A DNA stretch of 28,794 bases, from positions 1-28,794 of IMG/VR virus record IMGVR_UViG_3300031977_002741, one strand, 5' to 3'. Both the position numbers and the translations under genes were made by a program. Positions 14,187-22,481 of the stretch are shown here, piece after piece (the stretch's first letter is position 1; every line of letters starts with the position of its first letter). The notes under the pieces were generated by a model. It did not search any database and was not told the DNA's origin. It saw only the letters and a program-made list of their open reading frames with translations. Origin of the DNA: a virus.

Positions 14187-17100
14187 GTGGCTCAAGGTCA
14201 ATTTACTTATACACTGACCGTTGAAAGCCGTCAGTACAGAAGAGAGCTGGCGAATGCTTCAAAGCTAGCCAATGAACTTACCCGCACTATAGGTAAATCA
14301 GCCAAAGCGCAGCGGGACGCTTTTAGGGCAGCATCCGAGGAAGTACAAAGAACACAACGCAGATATAACAACCTTGCAAATGCTGTAAAGGCTTTTCCTA
14401 ACATTGCGGATAGAACCAAGGATCGTGAGTTCTTCAAGCAATTACAGACGGAAGCAAAGGGAGCCAAAGTTGCGTTTAAAGATGCGTCAAAAGAGTTGAC
14501 AAGCTATGTCAGGACTCTTAAGCAGCTTAGTGAGCTAGATGTAAAACAGATTCGCCGCGCCCAGGTTCAATCTGATGTTGGCGGTGCCCAAAAGAATCTA
14601 GCGCGACAGAACAGAGCTAACACTGCCACAGCGGACACGATTCGTAGAGTTTCTCTGGAACTTGGACGGGCTACACAGAAGCAGCGGGAATTTGTGAATG
14701 CCGGTCTTGATACAGCAAAGGTTGATCTACAGATTGCTAACCTCACGATTAAGCATGCCAAGTTGAATGAAGCCCTGAATAGGGGTGTAAAAAACGCGAG
14801 GAATTTAGAGAAAGAGCTTAAAGCTGTTGCCGATCAAGAGGGACGTTTAGGTCGTACTCAGTACAGCAGACCTATTGGGCCTGCAGCTCCCAAGCGCGGG
14901 TTTGGAGGTAATACAGGTACAAGAGCTGCTATCGGCGGCCGAATGTCCAAGATGGGCGGCTCTGCAGGCGCTGCAGGCGCTGCTTTAACGGGCGGAATAG
15001 CGGGTCTTGCGGCTGCGGCTGCTAGTCAGGCTGTGGATGCTGTCATGGCGCTAGGCCGTGCGGTAGGTCAATACGCCAGCGATGCAGCAAGGGCTGCAGC
15101 AGAAACGACACGCATGCGCCGCGCCCTTGCAGGTGTCTTAGGTGCTGAAGCTCCAGAGGCGTTTGAGTCAATCAAGCGTGTTGTTAAAGACTTTAATGTC
15201 CCACTGCAGGACGCCACGACAAACTTCACACGTTTTGCTGCTTCTGCTAAATCATCGGGTGTAGATGCTGTTGATATCGAAAAGTCATTCCGCGGCTTAA
15301 TTGCGGCAAACAAAGCTCTAGGAGGCAGTCAGGAACAGGCAAATGGAATCTTACTAGCTGCAACCCAGGTCTTCGGTAAGGGTAAGGTGGCAGCCGAAGA
15401 GCTCAGGGGCCAGATCGCTGAACGGCTTCCTGGAGCTGTTGCTTTGTTTGCCAAATCGATGGGGCTGACAACGGCCGAACTTGACAAAAGGCTCGAAGAG
15501 GGAACAGTATCTGTAGCTGACTTTGTTAAATTCACTGGTGAACTCCTTCAACAGTTTGAAGAAGACGCTAAGGCTATTTCCAGAGGGCCTGAAGAAGCCG
15601 GACAAAGGCTCGAAGTTGCTCTTGATCTTTTGCAACGTAACATTGGTACTTTATTAGCTCCGATTGGCGCTGCCTTCCAAACCACGTTTGCACTTATTGT
15701 CGGTGCGATCAATACTGGAATAGAAGCTATGAATCGCTTCCTAGGTTTAACTCCAGAGGCAGCACTTGACAAAGCTCAGAGTGCTTTAGAGGCTAGGCAG
15801 CGTGACTTGACCAACGCGATTAAAGGCGAGGGTAAGCTTGTCGATATTGGAATGCAGGGCAGCGGTCGCCGCCAAACCGAATCAGAAGCAAGGGCTGAAT
15901 TAGATGAAGCTATTAAAGCGTTGGACAAGGCCAGAAAGGTTGTAGGTACTGGCAAAGGCAGTATTGAGAAAGACAAAATGGTTACAGCGGAGGATCTTAT
16001 TAACAACAGAAGAGGCAAAGGCAGGGCTAGGTCTACCGGCAAAAGTGAGGCGCAGAGAACGGCCGAGCAAATGGCCAAGATCATGTCCGCAAACGAACGG
16101 CGTCTTGCTGAGGAGAACGCTCGCCAAGCGACGGCCACACTCAAAGCCCGCTATGCACTGCAGCGGCAACTTGAAGAGGCAAACCAAAATCATATTGCGC
16201 AGGGTCTACATGGCGGCAGAAGGTTGATGCAGGAGATCTATAACTCGTTCACAGCACAGATCTCTGCGCTTCAGGACCAAGGCAAGCAACTGGAGGATGC
16301 AGTAAGTCAGGCTGAGGCACGAGTAGAGGCAGCCAAAGCCGAGCTTGCAACCGCAACCACAGGACCAGACCAGGAGCGAGCCCAGGGCAGGGTCGACATG
16401 GAAACTGCGAAGCTTGCGGGGGCACGACAACGTTCTGCTGATTTTGAATCCAAATCCGGTGATCTGGCGACCTTTGCGTTTGCCGATATGTTGTCTGCTT
16501 CAACCGCCGATTTCCGCGAACGTGCTTATCAACTGAAAACTGAGACTGAAGAGCTAAAGCTTCGCAACCGATTGATGATGGAGGGATTCTCTCCAGAAAT
16601 GATCGACATGCAGTTGGAGCAGGCTGAGATTGATCGCACACGCAATGAACAACTTGCTCAGCTCAGCGAACTTCAAAAAGCGGGTGGTATAAATGCTGAG
16701 TTATATGCTGCCAAGCTTAAAGAGATAAATTTAGCTGCTGATAGTGCCAAAGATGCTGTTGAAGCGTTGACTCAGGCGCAGATTGCGGCGGCCGACCCAA
16801 TTAAAAATTACATTGCAACGGCCCAGGAATACATTTCTAATACCAGAGAAAGACTTGGAGAGATGCTTGCGACAGTGGATCAAGCGTTAGCAGCTTCAAT
16901 CGAGGGTGTTGTCACGGGTACGATGACGATCGGCCAAGCATTCCAGTCGTTCTTTCAGAGCATTGGTCAGGCATTTTTGAAGATGGCTGCACAGATGATC
17001 GCCAAGTTGATCATTATCAAACTGTTGAAGACAGCCTTAGGGATGATGGGCGGCTCTGTGGCTCCAGATGTAGGGGATGCCATGGATGGTGGTGGCGTCT

Positions 17101-17435
17101 TACCAGAGATTGCTATGCCAGGTGAAATGCCTTTTGCCAAGGGTGGCATTGTGACACGTCCAACTCGTGCATTGATTGGTGAGGGAGGTATGAACGAAGC
17201 TGTTGTTCCATTACCTAACGGCCGATCTATTCCTGTTGATTTAGGTAAGGGAGGTGCGGGTCAAATGACTAATAATACAACCGTTACTGTGAATGTAGAT
17301 AATTCAGGCGGCGCTACTTCCGACGTTCAAGGTGATGATGCAGGGAAACTTGGTCAGGCCATTGATGGAGCGATCCGCAAAGTTATTATGGAGGAACGAC
17401 GTTCTGGTGGACTTCTTTATACAGGTGGTAGGTAG
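14187..17435 (+). CDS. Tail tape measure protein, 1082 aa
   Basis: This is the longest ORF in the window, in the expected place after the chaperone. It sets tail length and is probably ejected during infection. GTG 14187 has TAGGT 6 bases upstream. Residues 1-220 are helical coiled coil. About 257-295 is a Gly/Ala-rich hydrophobic stretch. About 300-490 is the conserved tape-measure domain (QYASDAARAAAETTRMRRAL, FTRFAASAKSSGVD, KGKVAAEELRGQIAERLPGA). A long coiled coil follows, then a hydrophobic helix (MAAQMIAKLIIIKLLKTAL) and the typical C-terminal KGGIVTRPTRALIGEGG with NEAVVPLP. No lysozyme or peptidase domain is seen. Confidence 0.96.
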   Translation: MAQGQFTYTLTVESRQYRRELANASKLANELTRTIGKSAKAQRDAFRAASEEVQRTQRRYNNLANAVKAFPNIADRTKDREFFKQLQTEAKGAKVAFKDASKELTSYVRTLKQLSELDVKQIRRAQVQSDVGGAQKNLARQNRANTATADTIRRVSLELGRATQKQREFVNAGLDTAKVDLQIANLTIKHAKLNEALNRGVKNARNLEKELKAVADQEGRLGRTQYSRPIGPAAPKRGFGGNTGTRAAIGGRMSKMGGSAGAAGAALTGGIAGLAAAAASQAVDAVMALGRAVGQYASDAARAAAETTRMRRALAGVLGAEAPEAFESIKRVVKDFNVPLQDATTNFTRFAASAKSSGVDAVDIEKSFRGLIAANKALGGSQEQANGILLAATQVFGKGKVAAEELRGQIAERLPGAVALFAKSMGLTTAELDKRLEEGTVSVADFVKFTGELLQQFEEDAKAISRGPEEAGQRLEVALDLLQRNIGTLLAPIGAAFQTTFALIVGAINTGIEAMNRFLGLTPEAALDKAQSALEARQRDLTNAIKGEGKLVDIGMQGSGRRQTESEARAELDEAIKALDKARKVVGTGKGSIEKDKMVTAEDLINNRRGKGRARSTGKSEAQRTAEQMAKIMSANERRLAEENARQATATLKARYALQRQLEEANQNHIAQGLHGGRRLMQEIYNSFTAQISALQDQGKQLEDAVSQAEARVEAAKAELATATTGPDQERAQGRVDMETAKLAGARQRSADFESKSGDLATFAFADMLSASTADFRERAYQLKTETEELKLRNRLMMEGFSPEMIDMQLEQAEIDRTRNEQLAQLSELQKAGGINAELYAAKLKEINLAADSAKDAVEALTQAQIAAADPIKNYIATAQEYISNTRERLGEMLATVDQALAASIEGVVTGTMTIGQAFQSFFQSIGQAFLKMAAQMIAKLIIIKLLKTALGMMGGSVAPDVGDAMDGGGVLPEIAMPGEMPFAKGGIVTRPTRALIGEGGMNEAVVPLPNGRSIPVDLGKGGAGQMTNNTTVTVNVDNSGGATSDVQGDDAGKLGQAIDGAIRKVIMEERRSGGLLYTGGR

Positions 17436-17437
17436 AT

Positions 17438-17869
17438 ATGGCTGATCACGCGCTTTCACTAGATATTCTCCGCCAAGTTAAAGAGACTGTCACTCATAGG
17501 GTACGCAGATTCGGTTATGGCGATGGTTATGAGCAGGTGCGCCCGGATGGTATTAACACGGCGATGCGTGAATACAACATTGTGACACGTCCACTTGATC
17601 GTGCTACGGCGAATGATTTTCGTGCTGCTTTGGACAAAGTTTGTTCCGGTGATTATTTCACTGCGACTTTAGAGCCATATCAAAATGTCACTACTAATGG
17701 GCAGCCCCGTTCAGATGGTTCTGGACCTAGTCGCTATAGAGTTGCCGATGACACTTATGAGCGTCAGATTATCCGGGCTGAGGGTTTAGGCAGAGCGAAT
17801 GTAAGACCTGCCTTTGAGGTTTATACGTTTACTTTGAAGCAAGCATTTGCTGGAGATAATATCGCGTAA
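17438..17869 (+). CDS. Minor tail protein, lambda gpM-like, 143 aa
   Basis: The protein carries HRVRRFGYGDGYEQVRPDG (36-54), the signature of the lambda gpM family, a tail-tip protein acting at the end of the tape measure. RPLDRATANDFRAALDK and a final strand FEVYTFTLKQAF complete the pattern. Here the two halves are separated by a Ser/Gly/Pro-rich stretch (NGQPRSDGSGPSRYR). ATG 17438 follows the tape measure stop by 2 bases; GGTGGTAGG is a fair Shine-Dalgarno. The order tape measure, M, L, K, I/J is that of lambda, with one extra gene inserted after M. Confidence 0.87.
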   Translation: MADHALSLDILRQVKETVTHRVRRFGYGDGYEQVRPDGINTAMREYNIVTRPLDRATANDFRAALDKVCSGDYFTATLEPYQNVTTNGQPRSDGSGPSRYRVADDTYERQIIRAEGLGRANVRPAFEVYTFTLKQAFAGDNIA

Positions 17870-17870
17870 G

Positions 17871-18743
17871 ATGGCACGTTATCCAGTTTTTGACAGAGAT
17901 AATTTGAGCGATGCAAATCCTTTCAAGAGGGATATGCAGGATGCTATTGACGAATTAGAAGATGCCCAGAGCGATTGGTATAACGACAGGGAAGACCTAT
18001 TTAGGGATTACGGTGTAAGAAATATAAGCAGAACTAAGGTAGAGGCCAAATATGATCAGGTCTTAGGGGAAAAGAACGGTGATAATAGACCTTGGAAATG
18101 GAAGGAAATCATTGAGGGGTTTTCTCTAAATAGAAGGAGTCGTAACGATGATGACGATAGGTGGGTAAAAATTGGCACCAAAGACCTTGGCATTGTAAGT
18201 AGTATATATCTGCTCTATGAGCGAGACGATTTTTCTTGGGATGAGATAAGGGATGACGGTGACCAAGTTATTGTTGTTCGATACGAACCTGGACGAGGGA
18301 AAGGGCAACTCGACATTCTTTATGAGGATGCACCTTTGTTCACCGGGGGTTCTAAACCTTATGAGAACCGTGACTTAGGTATTAGGGTTTTAGATGACGA
18401 GGATGCAGACATCATTAGCCTCAACGAACATGTTCGTAGTGGCTTTGGAGAAACCCCAATCGCCTGGGAAAAGGAGGGAAATTATACTGATGTGCAAATT
18501 CATATTATGAACGCTGCTTATCCAAGTTTTGAGGATGCAGTACGTCCTTATATCTCTGCCTATGAGGACGCTAGGGATCTCTATGAAGGAGCTGGAGGTA
18601 AGCCACTCGAAGGTGACTTTTTCCAGAATCCACCTGCAAGCTGGGACATTCCCTGGGATGGAATCGAGCTAGATTCTACTCGTTACAATAAACCCGGTCC
18701 GCTAAAAGATGCTTTGGTTAGATTGACCAGAGGAGTGGAGTAA
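17871..18743 (+). CDS. Unrecognised acidic tail-tip region protein, 290 aa
   Basis: The start is ATG 17871, two bases after the gpM-like stop. An earlier TTG (17847) lies inside the previous gene. The protein is rich in Asp, Glu, Tyr and Trp. It has a charged helical N-terminus (KRDMQDAIDELEDAQSDWYN), an acidic centre (RRSRNDDDDRWVKIGTKDLG), beta-type segments (QVIVVRYEPGRGKGQLDILY) and a helical end (FEDAVRPYISAYEDARDLYE). It contains no cysteine and no membrane segment. I recognise no family. Placement between M and L homologues implies a tail-tip or baseplate part, possibly calcium binding given the acidity; both are inference. Confidence 0.8.
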   Translation: MARYPVFDRDNLSDANPFKRDMQDAIDELEDAQSDWYNDREDLFRDYGVRNISRTKVEAKYDQVLGEKNGDNRPWKWKEIIEGFSLNRRSRNDDDDRWVKIGTKDLGIVSSIYLLYERDDFSWDEIRDDGDQVIVVRYEPGRGKGQLDILYEDAPLFTGGSKPYENRDLGIRVLDDEDADIISLNEHVRSGFGETPIAWEKEGNYTDVQIHIMNAAYPSFEDAVRPYISAYEDARDLYEGAGGKPLEGDFFQNPPASWDIPWDGIELDSTRYNKPGPLKDALVRLTRGVE

Positions 18744-18745
18744 AG

Positions 18746-19444
18746 ATGTCTCAAGATTTAAGTGGGAATTCTCAGGCTCTAATTGACTTGTATTCTATTG
18801 ACGGCTATGGCTCAAGCTCAGACGTAGATTTCACTACTGCTTATTTTGTTCCTGCTCAGCAGAGTGATAGCCGCACGGTTGAATATGTCAATGTTGACGG
18901 TACGCTTGTAATTTACGAGCCTTATCTTATTGAGACATCGGGTTTTGAAATTACAGGTTCAAATAAGTTGCCAAACCCTAAAATCGTCTTTTCCAACTTG
19001 CCTCTGTATAAAGAAGATGGCTCGTTACGGAAGAGAGGTAAGTTTACTTCCTTCAATAATTCCCACGATGATCTGATTGGATTTAGGCTTACACGAATCA
19101 GGACTTACCGGCGTTTTCTCCGCGCTATCGATGGAGTTCAGCAGTCCGGCTACGCTCCTGGCGCTCATTTTACTCCTGATCAATGGTGGTTCAATCGAAA
19201 GATAGAAGAGTCGATCAAATCCTGTGCTTATGAACTCGCTTCTGTTTTTGATGTAGAGGGCATTCGTTTCCCCCGGCGGCGAATGTATTCAAATTATTGT
19301 CCATGGGTTTTCAAAGGTCCAGAATGTGGATACACGGGGACTTCATATAATTTCTGCCCCAAAAATCTTGAGGGGTGTAAGGAACGTTTTGGTGAAGATG
19401 CTAATTTACCATTTGGCGGGTTTCCGACTGTACGCTATCAATGA
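18746..19444 (+). CDS. Minor tail protein, lambda gpL-like, 232 aa
   Basis: gpL-like proteins form part of the tail tip; the lambda C-terminal domain binds a [4Fe-4S] cluster through four cysteines. The protein has an N-terminal LIDLYSIDG segment, beta strands, FRLTRIRTYRRFL, and a C-terminal part with FPRRRMYSNYCPWVFKGPEC. Cys 185, 194, 204 and 211 follow the gpL arrangement; Cys 160 is extra. Shine-Dalgarno GGAGTGGAG is strong, and ATG 18746 follows the upstream TAA by 2 bases. The stop overlaps the next gene in an ATGA junction. Confidence 0.87.
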   Translation: MSQDLSGNSQALIDLYSIDGYGSSSDVDFTTAYFVPAQQSDSRTVEYVNVDGTLVIYEPYLIETSGFEITGSNKLPNPKIVFSNLPLYKEDGSLRKRGKFTSFNNSHDDLIGFRLTRIRTYRRFLRAIDGVQQSGYAPGAHFTPDQWWFNRKIEESIKSCAYELASVFDVEGIRFPRRRMYSNYCPWVFKGPECGYTGTSYNFCPKNLEGCKERFGEDANLPFGGFPTVRYQ

Positions 19445-19782
19445 GAAATAAACTGCACGTTGCTATTGCTAAAGCCGCCAAGAAGGCGTATCCAGAGGAA
19501 GCCTGTGGTTTTATTGATGGCAATACGGTCATTGAGCTAAAAAATAATTCGACCACACCGAAAGAATCATTTATTATCTCTGCCTTAGACTTTTTGAAGC
19601 ACGAACCTACTTCTATTTACCATTCGCATCCAACAGGTGATAATGGATTTAGCGAACAGGATTTATCTCTTGCTGCGACATTAGGTTTGACATCGTATCT
19701 GTATGTCAACGAAGCAGACAGGCTTGAGGTTTATACCATTTCAGAAGGTATTCAAAGATTTGAGAAGGTATCAAAACGATGA
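19441..19782 (+). CDS. Tail assembly protein, lambda gpK-like JAB/JAMM domain, 113 aa
   Basis: This is a compact JAB1/MPN (JAMM) metalloprotease domain. EEACGFIDG gives the upstream Glu (20), and HSHPTGDNGFSEQD (61-74) gives the His-x-His...Ser-x-x-Asp zinc motif with all residues intact. Lambda gpK has this domain plus an NlpC/P60 cell-wall peptidase; the latter is absent here, so the protein is about half the lambda length. It may process a tail protein during tip assembly. ATGA overlap with the gpL-like gene and ATGATG overlap with the next one show tight coupling. Confidence 0.9.
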   Translation: MRNKLHVAIAKAAKKAYPEEACGFIDGNTVIELKNNSTTPKESFIISALDFLKHEPTSIYHSHPTGDNGFSEQDLSLAATLGLTSYLYVNEADRLEVYTISEGIQRFEKVSKR

Positions 19783-22481
19783 TGAGAATCAGACTTGCGG
19801 GAGAGTTAGCCCGGAGATTTGGAGAGTTTCACATTTTCGCTGTCGGCAACCCTAATGAGGCGATCAGGGTTCTTTGCCAGATGTTGCCAGGCTTCCGTAC
19901 TTTTTTAACGGGTGCTCATGAGCGTGGTGTTTATTTTGAGTTAATTACCTCGAATGAAGATAGGCCAATCGGCTATGAAGACTTGATGCTGGGTTGTGAG
20001 TGTATAACTCTTGTTCCTGTTATTGCCGGTAACCTGTTTGGGCTTGGTGGTAAAGGGTTTGGCATCGCATCGATTTTAGTTGGTGTCGCCTTAGTTGCGT
20101 TTGCCTTCACTGGTTTCGGTGCTGTTGCGGCCGGTAGCTTTATGGCTGGTGTCCAAAGTGCGACTCTGTCGCTGGGCTTTGGATTGTTATTTACAGGTGT
20201 TGCGTCTCTATTTTCTCCAGGTGTACCGACTGCGGGCAAGAATACAAGCGAGGGTCGAGGCGCTGACGACGCTATTTTCAACAGTGCGTCTAGAACAGCT
20301 ACAAACGGCCAGCCAATTCCTTTGTTATACGGCGAAACGCTAGTTAGCGCTATACCTGTTGTCTCCTCTTACATCGCGGAGGATGACGAAGACGGGAGTA
20401 TTGACGCTGGCTATTGGATGGGGATTGTTTCTGAGGGACCGATTGAGGGATTTGCTTCAAAGCGGCGAGGAAACAGTGTAGAGGATGCTGCTGGTGAGGA
20501 TATTTACCTCGATGGACTTCAGGCTATCAACAGTTCTATGGAGGATTTTCAACTAACTGATGGCTTACAGACAACGCCTCAAATTACTCTTGTTAAATCT
20601 GCTGGTTTCCATATTCCTGTAGGTACGCAGTTCAACGCTCAGGGTGGTGAGTTTGGCGAAACTGACAACGGCATACCTAGTACAACTGCGACAAGAAGTT
20701 TTTCGCAACTTGGAGCTGATAAGGTTACTGTTCGTATAAGTGTGAGTCCATGCCACTTAGTTAGGGTCAAATCTGACAGTGGAGGCTCTGAGAGTAATTA
20801 TAAGCATTACAACAGTGATGATAGCGATTTTGATGATCAGGATGATCTAGAGGATGGTGCTCAAAACTTTACTAGGTTGTTTATTAGAGTGATTAACGGT
20901 AATGGGGATGTAATAGGGACACATGACTCTGAAGAGGAGTTTACTAAAGAAACTGCTACGAGACTCTACAAAAAATCATTCACTATTACCGGGCAGCCTA
21001 CGCCTATCTCTGTGACTGTCCAGCGCTTAGACCGGAAAGGACCGCCATCACCATATTCATTCCAAGGTGGTTCAAGTAATCGTAATTTCACCTGGGTTAA
21101 GGGGCCTTTTGTTTGGACCTCTATGGATGTCACTTGGAATGAAAAGCTTATCTACCCAAAATCTTCTTTGCTTGCTCTTAAGTTTAGAGCTGGCGAATTT
21201 TCAACTATTCCCAAAGTTCAGGTACGTCTAAAAGGTCTTAAGGTTCCTCAGCTAAATAGTAATCTGAAGGTTTCTTATGGTTACTCGAATAATCCAGCGT
21301 ATGTCTTGCTAAGCCTTTTGACCGACCCTCGATTCGGAGCTGGACGTCGTTCATTTGTTATCGATGGCGTCACTTTTGAGCAGCCCGGTATTGATATGAG
21401 AGATATAGACGCAGCGTCGTTTTTCAAGGCGGCTCAATACTGCGATGACCATAACATTACTTTTAACGGATATGTAAATCGAGATTCTGACGCACTTGAG
21501 TTGTTTAGGGGGATTGCTTCGACATTTCAAGCGCAGTTAATTTATGCTGGTGGATTTATCACGCTTGTTGTCGATAAGGAACTTGAATACGCAGAGGACG
21601 TTCGTATTTATTCCTCGGCTAATACAATTGCTGAAGGGCCAGGTGAAGTGCATTTTGTATATGAGGGTAGTGGCCGCAGGACCAGAAGTACGGCTGTAGA
21701 AGTCAGCTATATCGAGCCTGGTGAATTCTATGCCGAGAGAAAGGTGCTTGAAGAGTCTCCGAAGGACATCGACCGTTATGGATATAACTTGACTACGATC
21801 AGGGCGCTTGGCTGCACAAACGAAGCCCAGGCGCGTCGTTTAGCGCGGTACACACTAGAAACGAATGTGCGTTCAACGGATACTGTCTCGTTTAAGGTCG
21901 GCCCTGACGGTGCGATGGTCATTCCTGGCGATATCGTCCTGGTCTTAGACCCCTTGAAGACTAACTGTGAGTGTGCTGGAAGAATTATTTCAAGCGCTGA
22001 CAATCACATTATTGTTGACCGTGATATTACAGGTAATTCTTCTACTAAACTTGTTGATTTGACTGATGTAGAAGGTGGTGAATGGCGTTTGTTTACTTAC
22101 GGGAGTACAGGGGTTACACAAAAGCATAAAATCAAGGGACACAGTGGCAGGCGCATAACGGTTGCGAATTGGTCCCAGTCTGAAGACCGTCTTCGTAATG
22201 GGACGCAACCCAGGAGGATGGATATGTGGGGCGTAGTTAAAGAAGGCACTCCAAATAGATACAAGGAACCTTATTACAGGGTCCAGTCTGTCAAAGAAAA
22301 CGGCGATGGTACTTACAGCGTTATCGCCATCAAATACGACGCTGAAAAATACGGTGTCATCAATAGTTCGTCTGTAGCCTCAAAAAGCTATAGTGTTTCC
22401 GCGAACAACAGCCATAATTTGGCTGTCTCTGCTAGTTCAATTAACGTAAGTGTAGATACGACGGGCATCGGTGGCTACTAA
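19779..22481 (+). CDS. Fused tail assembly gpI-like and tip attachment gpJ-like protein, 900 aa
   Basis: Residues 1-147 match lambda gpI in pattern: a beta-grasp start (MRIRLAGELARRFG, AIRVLCQMLPGFRTFL, LITSNEDRPIGYEDL) followed by hydrophobic Gly-rich segments (90-147). From about 165 the sequence is gpJ-like: NGQPIPLLYGETLVSAIPVV, GPIEGFASKRRG, KVTVRISVSPCHLVRV, NPAYVLLSLLTDPRFGAG, and DTVSFKVGPDGAMVIPGDIV. In lambda these are two proteins (I and J); here one ORF has no stop or start signal between them. It should form the central tip that contacts the host. It lacks the fibronectin tail, which seems to be encoded separately next. Confidence 0.92.
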   Translation: MMRIRLAGELARRFGEFHIFAVGNPNEAIRVLCQMLPGFRTFLTGAHERGVYFELITSNEDRPIGYEDLMLGCECITLVPVIAGNLFGLGGKGFGIASILVGVALVAFAFTGFGAVAAGSFMAGVQSATLSLGFGLLFTGVASLFSPGVPTAGKNTSEGRGADDAIFNSASRTATNGQPIPLLYGETLVSAIPVVSSYIAEDDEDGSIDAGYWMGIVSEGPIEGFASKRRGNSVEDAAGEDIYLDGLQAINSSMEDFQLTDGLQTTPQITLVKSAGFHIPVGTQFNAQGGEFGETDNGIPSTTATRSFSQLGADKVTVRISVSPCHLVRVKSDSGGSESNYKHYNSDDSDFDDQDDLEDGAQNFTRLFIRVINGNGDVIGTHDSEEEFTKETATRLYKKSFTITGQPTPISVTVQRLDRKGPPSPYSFQGGSSNRNFTWVKGPFVWTSMDVTWNEKLIYPKSSLLALKFRAGEFSTIPKVQVRLKGLKVPQLNSNLKVSYGYSNNPAYVLLSLLTDPRFGAGRRSFVIDGVTFEQPGIDMRDIDAASFFKAAQYCDDHNITFNGYVNRDSDALELFRGIASTFQAQLIYAGGFITLVVDKELEYAEDVRIYSSANTIAEGPGEVHFVYEGSGRRTRSTAVEVSYIEPGEFYAERKVLEESPKDIDRYGYNLTTIRALGCTNEAQARRLARYTLETNVRSTDTVSFKVGPDGAMVIPGDIVLVLDPLKTNCECAGRIISSADNHIIVDRDITGNSSTKLVDLTDVEGGEWRLFTYGSTGVTQKHKIKGHSGRRITVANWSQSEDRLRNGTQPRRMDMWGVVKEGTPNRYKEPYYRVQSVKENGDGTYSVIAIKYDAEKYGVINSSSVASKSYSVSANNSHNLAVSASSINVSVDTTGIGGY

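Follow-up and report, generated by a model that had tools for sequence, protein, structure and literature searches.

We analyzed IMG/VR virus record IMGVR_UViG_3300031977_002741, positions 1 to 28,794 (the window, that is, the whole 28,794-nucleotide stretch of DNA), a contig bearing the tail module of a siphovirus. The locus of interest belongs to a lambda-type siphovirus and forms its tail-tip module; here gpI and gpJ are fused into one 900-amino acid protein and gpK is reduced to its JAMM domain, a 113-amino acid protein encoded just upstream. We consider it probable that the JAMM protein cuts a beta-grasp pro-domain off the fusion at or after Gly84, leaving a plug-hub chain. We infer both that lambda-type cleavage occurs in this clade and which bond would be cut. 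An earlier note on this DNA, made from the sequence alone, had suggested that the peptidase might cleave between the gpI and gpJ parts. The features that bear on these readings are as follows.

19441 to 19782, + strand: JAMM-only gpK-like peptidase, 113 amino acids (PF14464; motif E20, H61, H63, S71, D74)
19779 to 22481, + strand: gpI-gpJ fusion, 900 amino acids (phrog_32 and phrog_31 in one frame)
19779 to 20030, + strand: beta-grasp (ubiquitin-like) domain, fusion residues 1-84, ending in the invariant Gly84 (gpI PDB chains; AlphaFold2 model; Gly84)
20031 to 20063, + strand: Gly-rich segment of variable length, residues 85-95, the predicted cut region (insertions and deletions within the clade, Gly84 fixed)
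20064 to 20216, + strand: hydrophobic gpI helices, residues 96-146 (hydropathy peak at 92-118; counterparts of lambda gpI H1/H2)
20217 to 20282, + strand: linker proposed by the earlier note, residues 147-168 (aligns to lambda gpI 157-177; lambda plug 159-175, PMC11101478)
20283 to 20384, + strand: gpI C-terminal hub-threading strand, residues 169-202 (GxPxPxxYG motif common to split gpI; 7 of 32 columns fixed in the clade)
20385 to 22478, + strand: gpJ hub part, residues about 203-900, without the long C-terminal fiber of lambda gpJ (PF13550; fold match to 8xcg_J)

The 900-amino acid protein is a gpI-gpJ fusion, not a separate gpI polypeptide. Its residues 1-205 match phrog_32, the gpI family (E 5.6e-36), the protein also hits phrog_31, the gpJ family (E 1.6e-88), and a profile search of the PDB with the fusion matched both gpI and gpJ chains of lambda and T1. 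The lambda and T1 gpI chains align from profile position 1-4, with 8iyk_I extending over profile positions 1-196 (E 1.1e-18). The single open reading frame (ORF) with gpI-like and gpJ-like parts that had been described in the window thus holds up, with both families in one frame in 70 records. The end of gpI at residue 147 does not: the gpI portion runs from residue 1 to about 202, and the gpJ portion occupies about 203-900. All the elements that follow the N-terminal domain of lambda-type gpI are present in the fusion, namely hydrophobic helices, then the plug and the GxPxPxxYG strand, and alignments with split gpI and within the clade place the plug strand, GQPIPLLYGE...VSSYI, at residues 177-199. 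For residues 1-84 the Lambda_tail_I Pfam match is weak (E 0.009, score 16.8, under the cut-off of 23.8).

To the AlphaFold2 model of the fusion, which has a mean predicted local distance difference test score (pLDDT) of 73.5, strands and helices at residues 2-82 contribute a folded beta-grasp domain, and the hub is folded as well. Fold searches used the whole fusion model, and their matches are dominated by the hub. The hub resembles lambda gpJ (8xcg_J: Z 25.6, 3.6 Å, 552 residues, model 207-865); this structural match starts at model residue 203-207 and stops at gpJ residue about 603-608 (model residue about 865-871), and the fusion protein ends at 900. The Sf11 hub 9occ_E follows (Z 24.6, 5.7 Å, 557 residues, model 173-865), and T5 pb3 ranks next. 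The match to Sf11 starts in the plug region, in keeping with the view that the fusion, when trimmed, is a chi-type chain of plug and hub.

The gene preceding the fusion, whose ORF overlaps it by 4 nucleotides, encodes a protein with Prok-JAB PF14464 as its sole Pfam match (E 3.9e-13); the Pfam search found no NlpC/P60 domain in it. Its sequence carries the JAMM/MPN+ motif E-x(n)-H-S/T-H-x7-S-x2-D in full, as E20, H61-S62-H63, S71 and D74, bearing out the description of a 113-amino acid gpK-like gene with an intact JAMM motif. An inactive JAMM site in related phages had been named as one outcome that would speak against processing; in the clade, 68 of 68 sequences have E20, and H61, H63, S71 and D74 are each present in 69 of 69. 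A dead JAMM enzyme is therefore unlikely, because all catalytic positions are invariant across a divergent clade. The AlphaFold2 model (pLDDT 92.5) has deubiquitinase-type JAMM proteins as its nearest solved folds, and it superposes on 5lda, a structure of Pyrococcus furiosus JAMM1 in complex with SAMP2, which is ubiquitin-like, with Z 11.4 and 2.8 Å over 104 residues, but fold likeness in a model is by itself no proof of activity. A tblastn search of cultured phages with the 113-amino acid protein gave zero matches at 1e-5.

We considered whether the NlpC domain had been relocated or replaced by an M23 domain, and rejected this for the material at hand: in the window and nine other clade records Pfam searches gave zero matches to NlpC/P60 or M23, and JAB was found in all ten. 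These records are probably incomplete, and an NlpC- or M23-type hydrolase may therefore lie elsewhere. In a relative (contig L003), the tape measure protein at 3-2102 contains a stretch that looks M23-like by eye (HFHVEG...HHGFDLAGPNG), with no Pfam match at 0.01; no such stretch was seen in the window's tape measure protein.

Conservation around the end of the beta-grasp domain points to where a cut would fall. The domain ends in P80-V-I-A-G84, and Gly84 is invariant in all 71 fused loci (56 of 56 distinct sequences). Of 105 further distinct gpI sequences, 102 have Gly in the same column; the others comprise one Ala and two gaps. Directly after Gly84 the segment varies in length across the clade, which might make it an accessible linker. 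Gly84 aligns to lambda gpI Gly96. The resolved part of gpI in the closed tail tip of lambda begins at residue 101, the N-terminal domain being unseen (PMC11101478). In T1 gp34 the equivalent glycine is at 87 and the model begins at residue 92 (PMC11945409), so that in both lambda and T1 the resolved virion gpI begins five residues past the glycine. We also count in favor the Sf11 hub, whose model starts only at residue 81 of 828. On this pattern, a cut at or just after Gly84 is likely.

In the mechanism that we propose, residues 1-84 would most likely be a removable pro-domain, which the JAMM metalloprotease would recognize like a ubiquitin and release by cutting at or just past Gly84, probably after incorporation of the hub into the growing tail tip. 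Mature virions would then contain a single plug-plus-hub chain of about residues 85-900, whose gpI part would plug the tail lumen and support the tape measure. Joining I to J would merely tether the plug to a hub through which it passes in any case, much as chi-like hubs do. Rather less firmly, we favor the further view that a stand-alone 113-amino acid JAMM protein, lacking NlpC/P60, removes the ubiquitin-like pro-domain, that the two-gene cassette is the whole checkpoint and that NlpC is dispensable.

The arrangement recurs well beyond the window. Counting each record once, gpI and gpJ lie in one frame in 70 records (the window and 69 IMG/VR contigs), the representatives compared being 41-59% identical to the window's fusion. 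In 68 of the 70 the preceding gene encodes JAB without NlpC, one of these genes being cut by the contig end; the other two contigs begin too late to show it. Judging by sample numbers, the clade may be marine. We found the clade in IMG/VR contigs with an alignment of three members (A3); the fusion alone, searched against viral contigs, gave no matches, and diverse gpI proteins, once aligned, proved too variable to serve as a query. A PF13550 search of 398 genomes returned mostly frames of about 1300 amino acids, apparently from a different type of tail, and we set it aside. In a tree of the gpJ part, all 28 fused representatives fall in one clade (support 100). The 70 records may therefore go back to a single fusion and a single NlpC loss, and per-record counts are not counts of independent events.

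Among split I/J loci in our survey, a sample biased by having been gathered with JAB and fusion queries, 85 have a gpK with both JAB and NlpC, one of these being truncated. At one further split locus (L162) NlpC alone is visible because the contig starts inside the gpK gene, and another (L072) has a JAB-only gpK. A divergent lineage (L021 850-1894 and L035 2053-3070) also has a JAB-only gpK; its gpI is separate and highly degenerate, retaining the C-terminal strand without a clear hydrophobic segment. In a bacterial genome (L205 773-2088), one gpK is followed by two consecutive gpI genes.

The reverse case occurs in chi-like, D3-like, Vibrio, Xanthomonas and Acinetobacter phages, in which a small protein other than JAB precedes a plug-gpJ fusion. 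The small protein scores above the Pfam cut-off for NlpC/P60 in PHA46_2 alone; it falls below the cut-off in phiXacJX1, HY01, PAJU2 and P27, and gave no NlpC/P60 match in the Acinetobacter phages AbIPP1 and Ab1656-2. In SH-Ab 15497 the protein scanned is a DUF1833 protein, which leaves the gpK of that phage outside this classification. No JAB was found anywhere in eight cultured phage records with plug-J fusions, with T1 and ZQG1 as positive controls. The N-termini of these JAB-less fusions are weakly ThiS-like (ThiS E 0.066 in a prophage relative), and the glycine at the end of the beta-grasp, placed by eye, is present in 6 of 11 sequences. Taken with the clade, these fusions suggest that it is the JAMM domain, not the NlpC domain, that goes with the conserved glycine. 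Separately, we observed prophage plug-hub fusions with an NlpC-only gpK and no JAB next door (L238 and L239 in G017, L240 in G156), in which a poly-Gly run directly follows the weakly ThiS-like N-terminal domain.

Several observations weigh against removal of the pro-domain by the JAMM protein. The main reason for holding our confidence down is that a missing N-terminus also occurs without JAB: the hub of Sf11, a phage described as structurally chi-like, has 828 amino acids and is modeled from residue 81 onward (PMC12724387), and a chi-like relative has an NlpC-only gpK. Because the Sf11 model lacks the first 80 residues and this relative is NlpC-only, missing density alone does not show JAMM cleavage. 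An unseen N-terminus is thus not limited to JAB-bearing phages, and flexibility or another protease could therefore explain Sf11. More generally, N-termini that are unresolved by electron cryomicroscopy may be flexible rather than absent, and conservation of Gly84 could serve the fold. The T1-like phage Roth10, with a JAB+NlpC gpK, has no Gly at the column and a GG a few residues later. The AlphaFold2 model of the fusion is poor at residues 83-170, no cultured member of the fused clade turned up in the phage collection, and the lambda gpK-gpI result discussed below is a second-hand meeting report (PMC12908700).

Processing might be absent from this clade altogether, with the beta-grasp retained for a structural role or for chaperone binding, while the JAMM protein serves as a non-cutting assembly factor. 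Inactive JAMM-fold proteins exist, and JAB-less plug-J phages retain a weakly ThiS-like N-terminal region. However, JAMM proteins without activity usually lose catalytic or zinc-binding residues. Here all five such residues are invariant in 69 divergent sequences, as is Gly84, and we judge this explanation unlikely. That the JAMM protein acts elsewhere, for example on the tape measure, on gpL or on a ubiquitin-like conjugate of the host, its adjacency to gpI being historical, seems to us distinctly improbable: wherever a record is long enough for both, the JAB gene lies immediately before the fusion, and gpI is reported to be the partner of lambda gpK (PMC12908700).

The cut in a linker at about 147-165 put forward in the earlier note would split the protein into gpI (1-147) and gpJ (165-900) parts and restore a two-protein state. 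The stretch is polar and loop-like, with P147, G148 and E158 invariant, and lies where AlphaFold2 is not confident (83-170). It is nevertheless inside gpI and upstream of the plug strand at 177-199, so that a cut there would leave gpI unseparated from gpJ. It pairs with lambda gpI 157-174, plug residues that are part of one virion chain, and cleavage would break the plug; no beta-grasp directly precedes it; and processing in lambda is reported as removal of the ubiquitin-like domain (PMC12908700). We give this site very little chance, and Gly84 is the likely one. Lastly, the long ORF could be an assembly or frameshift artifact of genes that are separate in the real phage, given that IMG/VR contigs are uncultured assemblies and that one relative (L109) has a break, though within gpJ. 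The same in-frame fusion in 70 records, with fixed S218, E219, G220 and G224 following the junction, leads us to reject this with near certainty.

Upstream of the JAMM gene, the window encodes further tail proteins.

14187 to 17435, + strand: tape measure protein, the gpH counterpart (PF20155, E 3.5e-25)
17438 to 17869, + strand: gpM homologue, distal tail (PF05939, E 3.7e-11)
18746 to 19444, + strand: gpL homologue (PF05100, E 2.7e-28) with a Cys-rich C-terminus, presumably of the 4Fe-4S type from the cysteines in its translation

Between the gpM and gpL homologues, a gene at 17847-18743 encodes 298 amino acids and was without match in Pfam and PHROG searches; in contig L003 a 258-amino acid ORF occupies the equivalent position.

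Ubiquitin-like processing in tail assembly is not new, because it was predicted in 2006 and reported for lambda in 2025. Iyer et al. 2006 described TAPI, TAPK and TAPJ, their names for gpI, gpK and gpJ, noted that some prophages carry TAPI joined to TAPJ, and proposed release of the ubiquitin-like domain, at its last glycine, by JAB (PMC1779556). Cleavage of the ubiquitin-like domain of lambda gpI by gpK was reported as shown by the Davidson laboratory at a 2025 meeting (PMC12908700). The lambda gpI plug, residues 159-175, lies within one chain in the virion (PMC11101478). The idea of a ubiquitin-like processing step raised in the earlier note therefore stands in outline, but not with its site between the gpI and gpJ parts. 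The pairing of a fused substrate and a JAMM-only enzyme makes the locus a variant of a known process.

The same note had taken lambda K to have both peptidase domains. An intact JAB+NlpC frame is indeed present in the translated lambda-like record OM418627, yet K is still annotated there as 199 amino acids; in the lambda reference NC_001416, the N-terminal JAB half, which holds the catalytic Glu, is not in frame with the rest, owing to which the reference K is annotated as 199 amino acids. The loci compared were L005 1113-1873 (NC_001416, gene K) and L172 712-1473. Nearly all listed lambda-like records differ from the reference by one base in length at that spot. The frame break in the reference could be an old sequence error or a laboratory mutation.

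The locus is a natural variant in which the two peptidase domains of gpK have been separated and gpI has been tied to gpJ. With one short protease and one substrate, the pair offers a minimal system in which to test the checkpoint reported in lambda. The cut is predicted at an invariant glycine, and the mature product would be about 84 residues shorter. If this is true, the JAMM-only cassette shows that the NlpC domain is unnecessary for a ubiquitin-like tail-tip checkpoint.

As regards known systems, the locus shares with lambda gpK-gpI-gpJ the gene order after gpM and gpL, a JAMM peptidase just upstream, a gpI composed of beta-grasp, hydrophobic and plug parts, and a hub gpJ. Unlike in lambda, I and J are one protein, gpK is without NlpC/P60 and the hub is without the long C-terminal fiber. 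With the chi-like and D3-like hubs (Sf11 gp14, PHA46_2, PAJU2) it shares a plug and a gpJ-type hub in one chain, whereas in those phages the protein in the place of gpK is NlpC-like or unassigned, JAB is absent from the cultured records searched and the glycine is not always kept. The prophage TAPI-TAPJ fusions of Iyer et al. 2006 likewise join gpI to gpJ; a JAMM-only gpK is not described alongside them in the available part of that paper, whereas the clade found here consists of uncultured viruses with a JAMM-only gpK wherever gpK is on the contig. P. furiosus JAMM1 (5lda), which is archaeal and has no phage role, represents the nearest kind of solved fold to the 113-amino acid protein and was solved with a ubiquitin-like partner.

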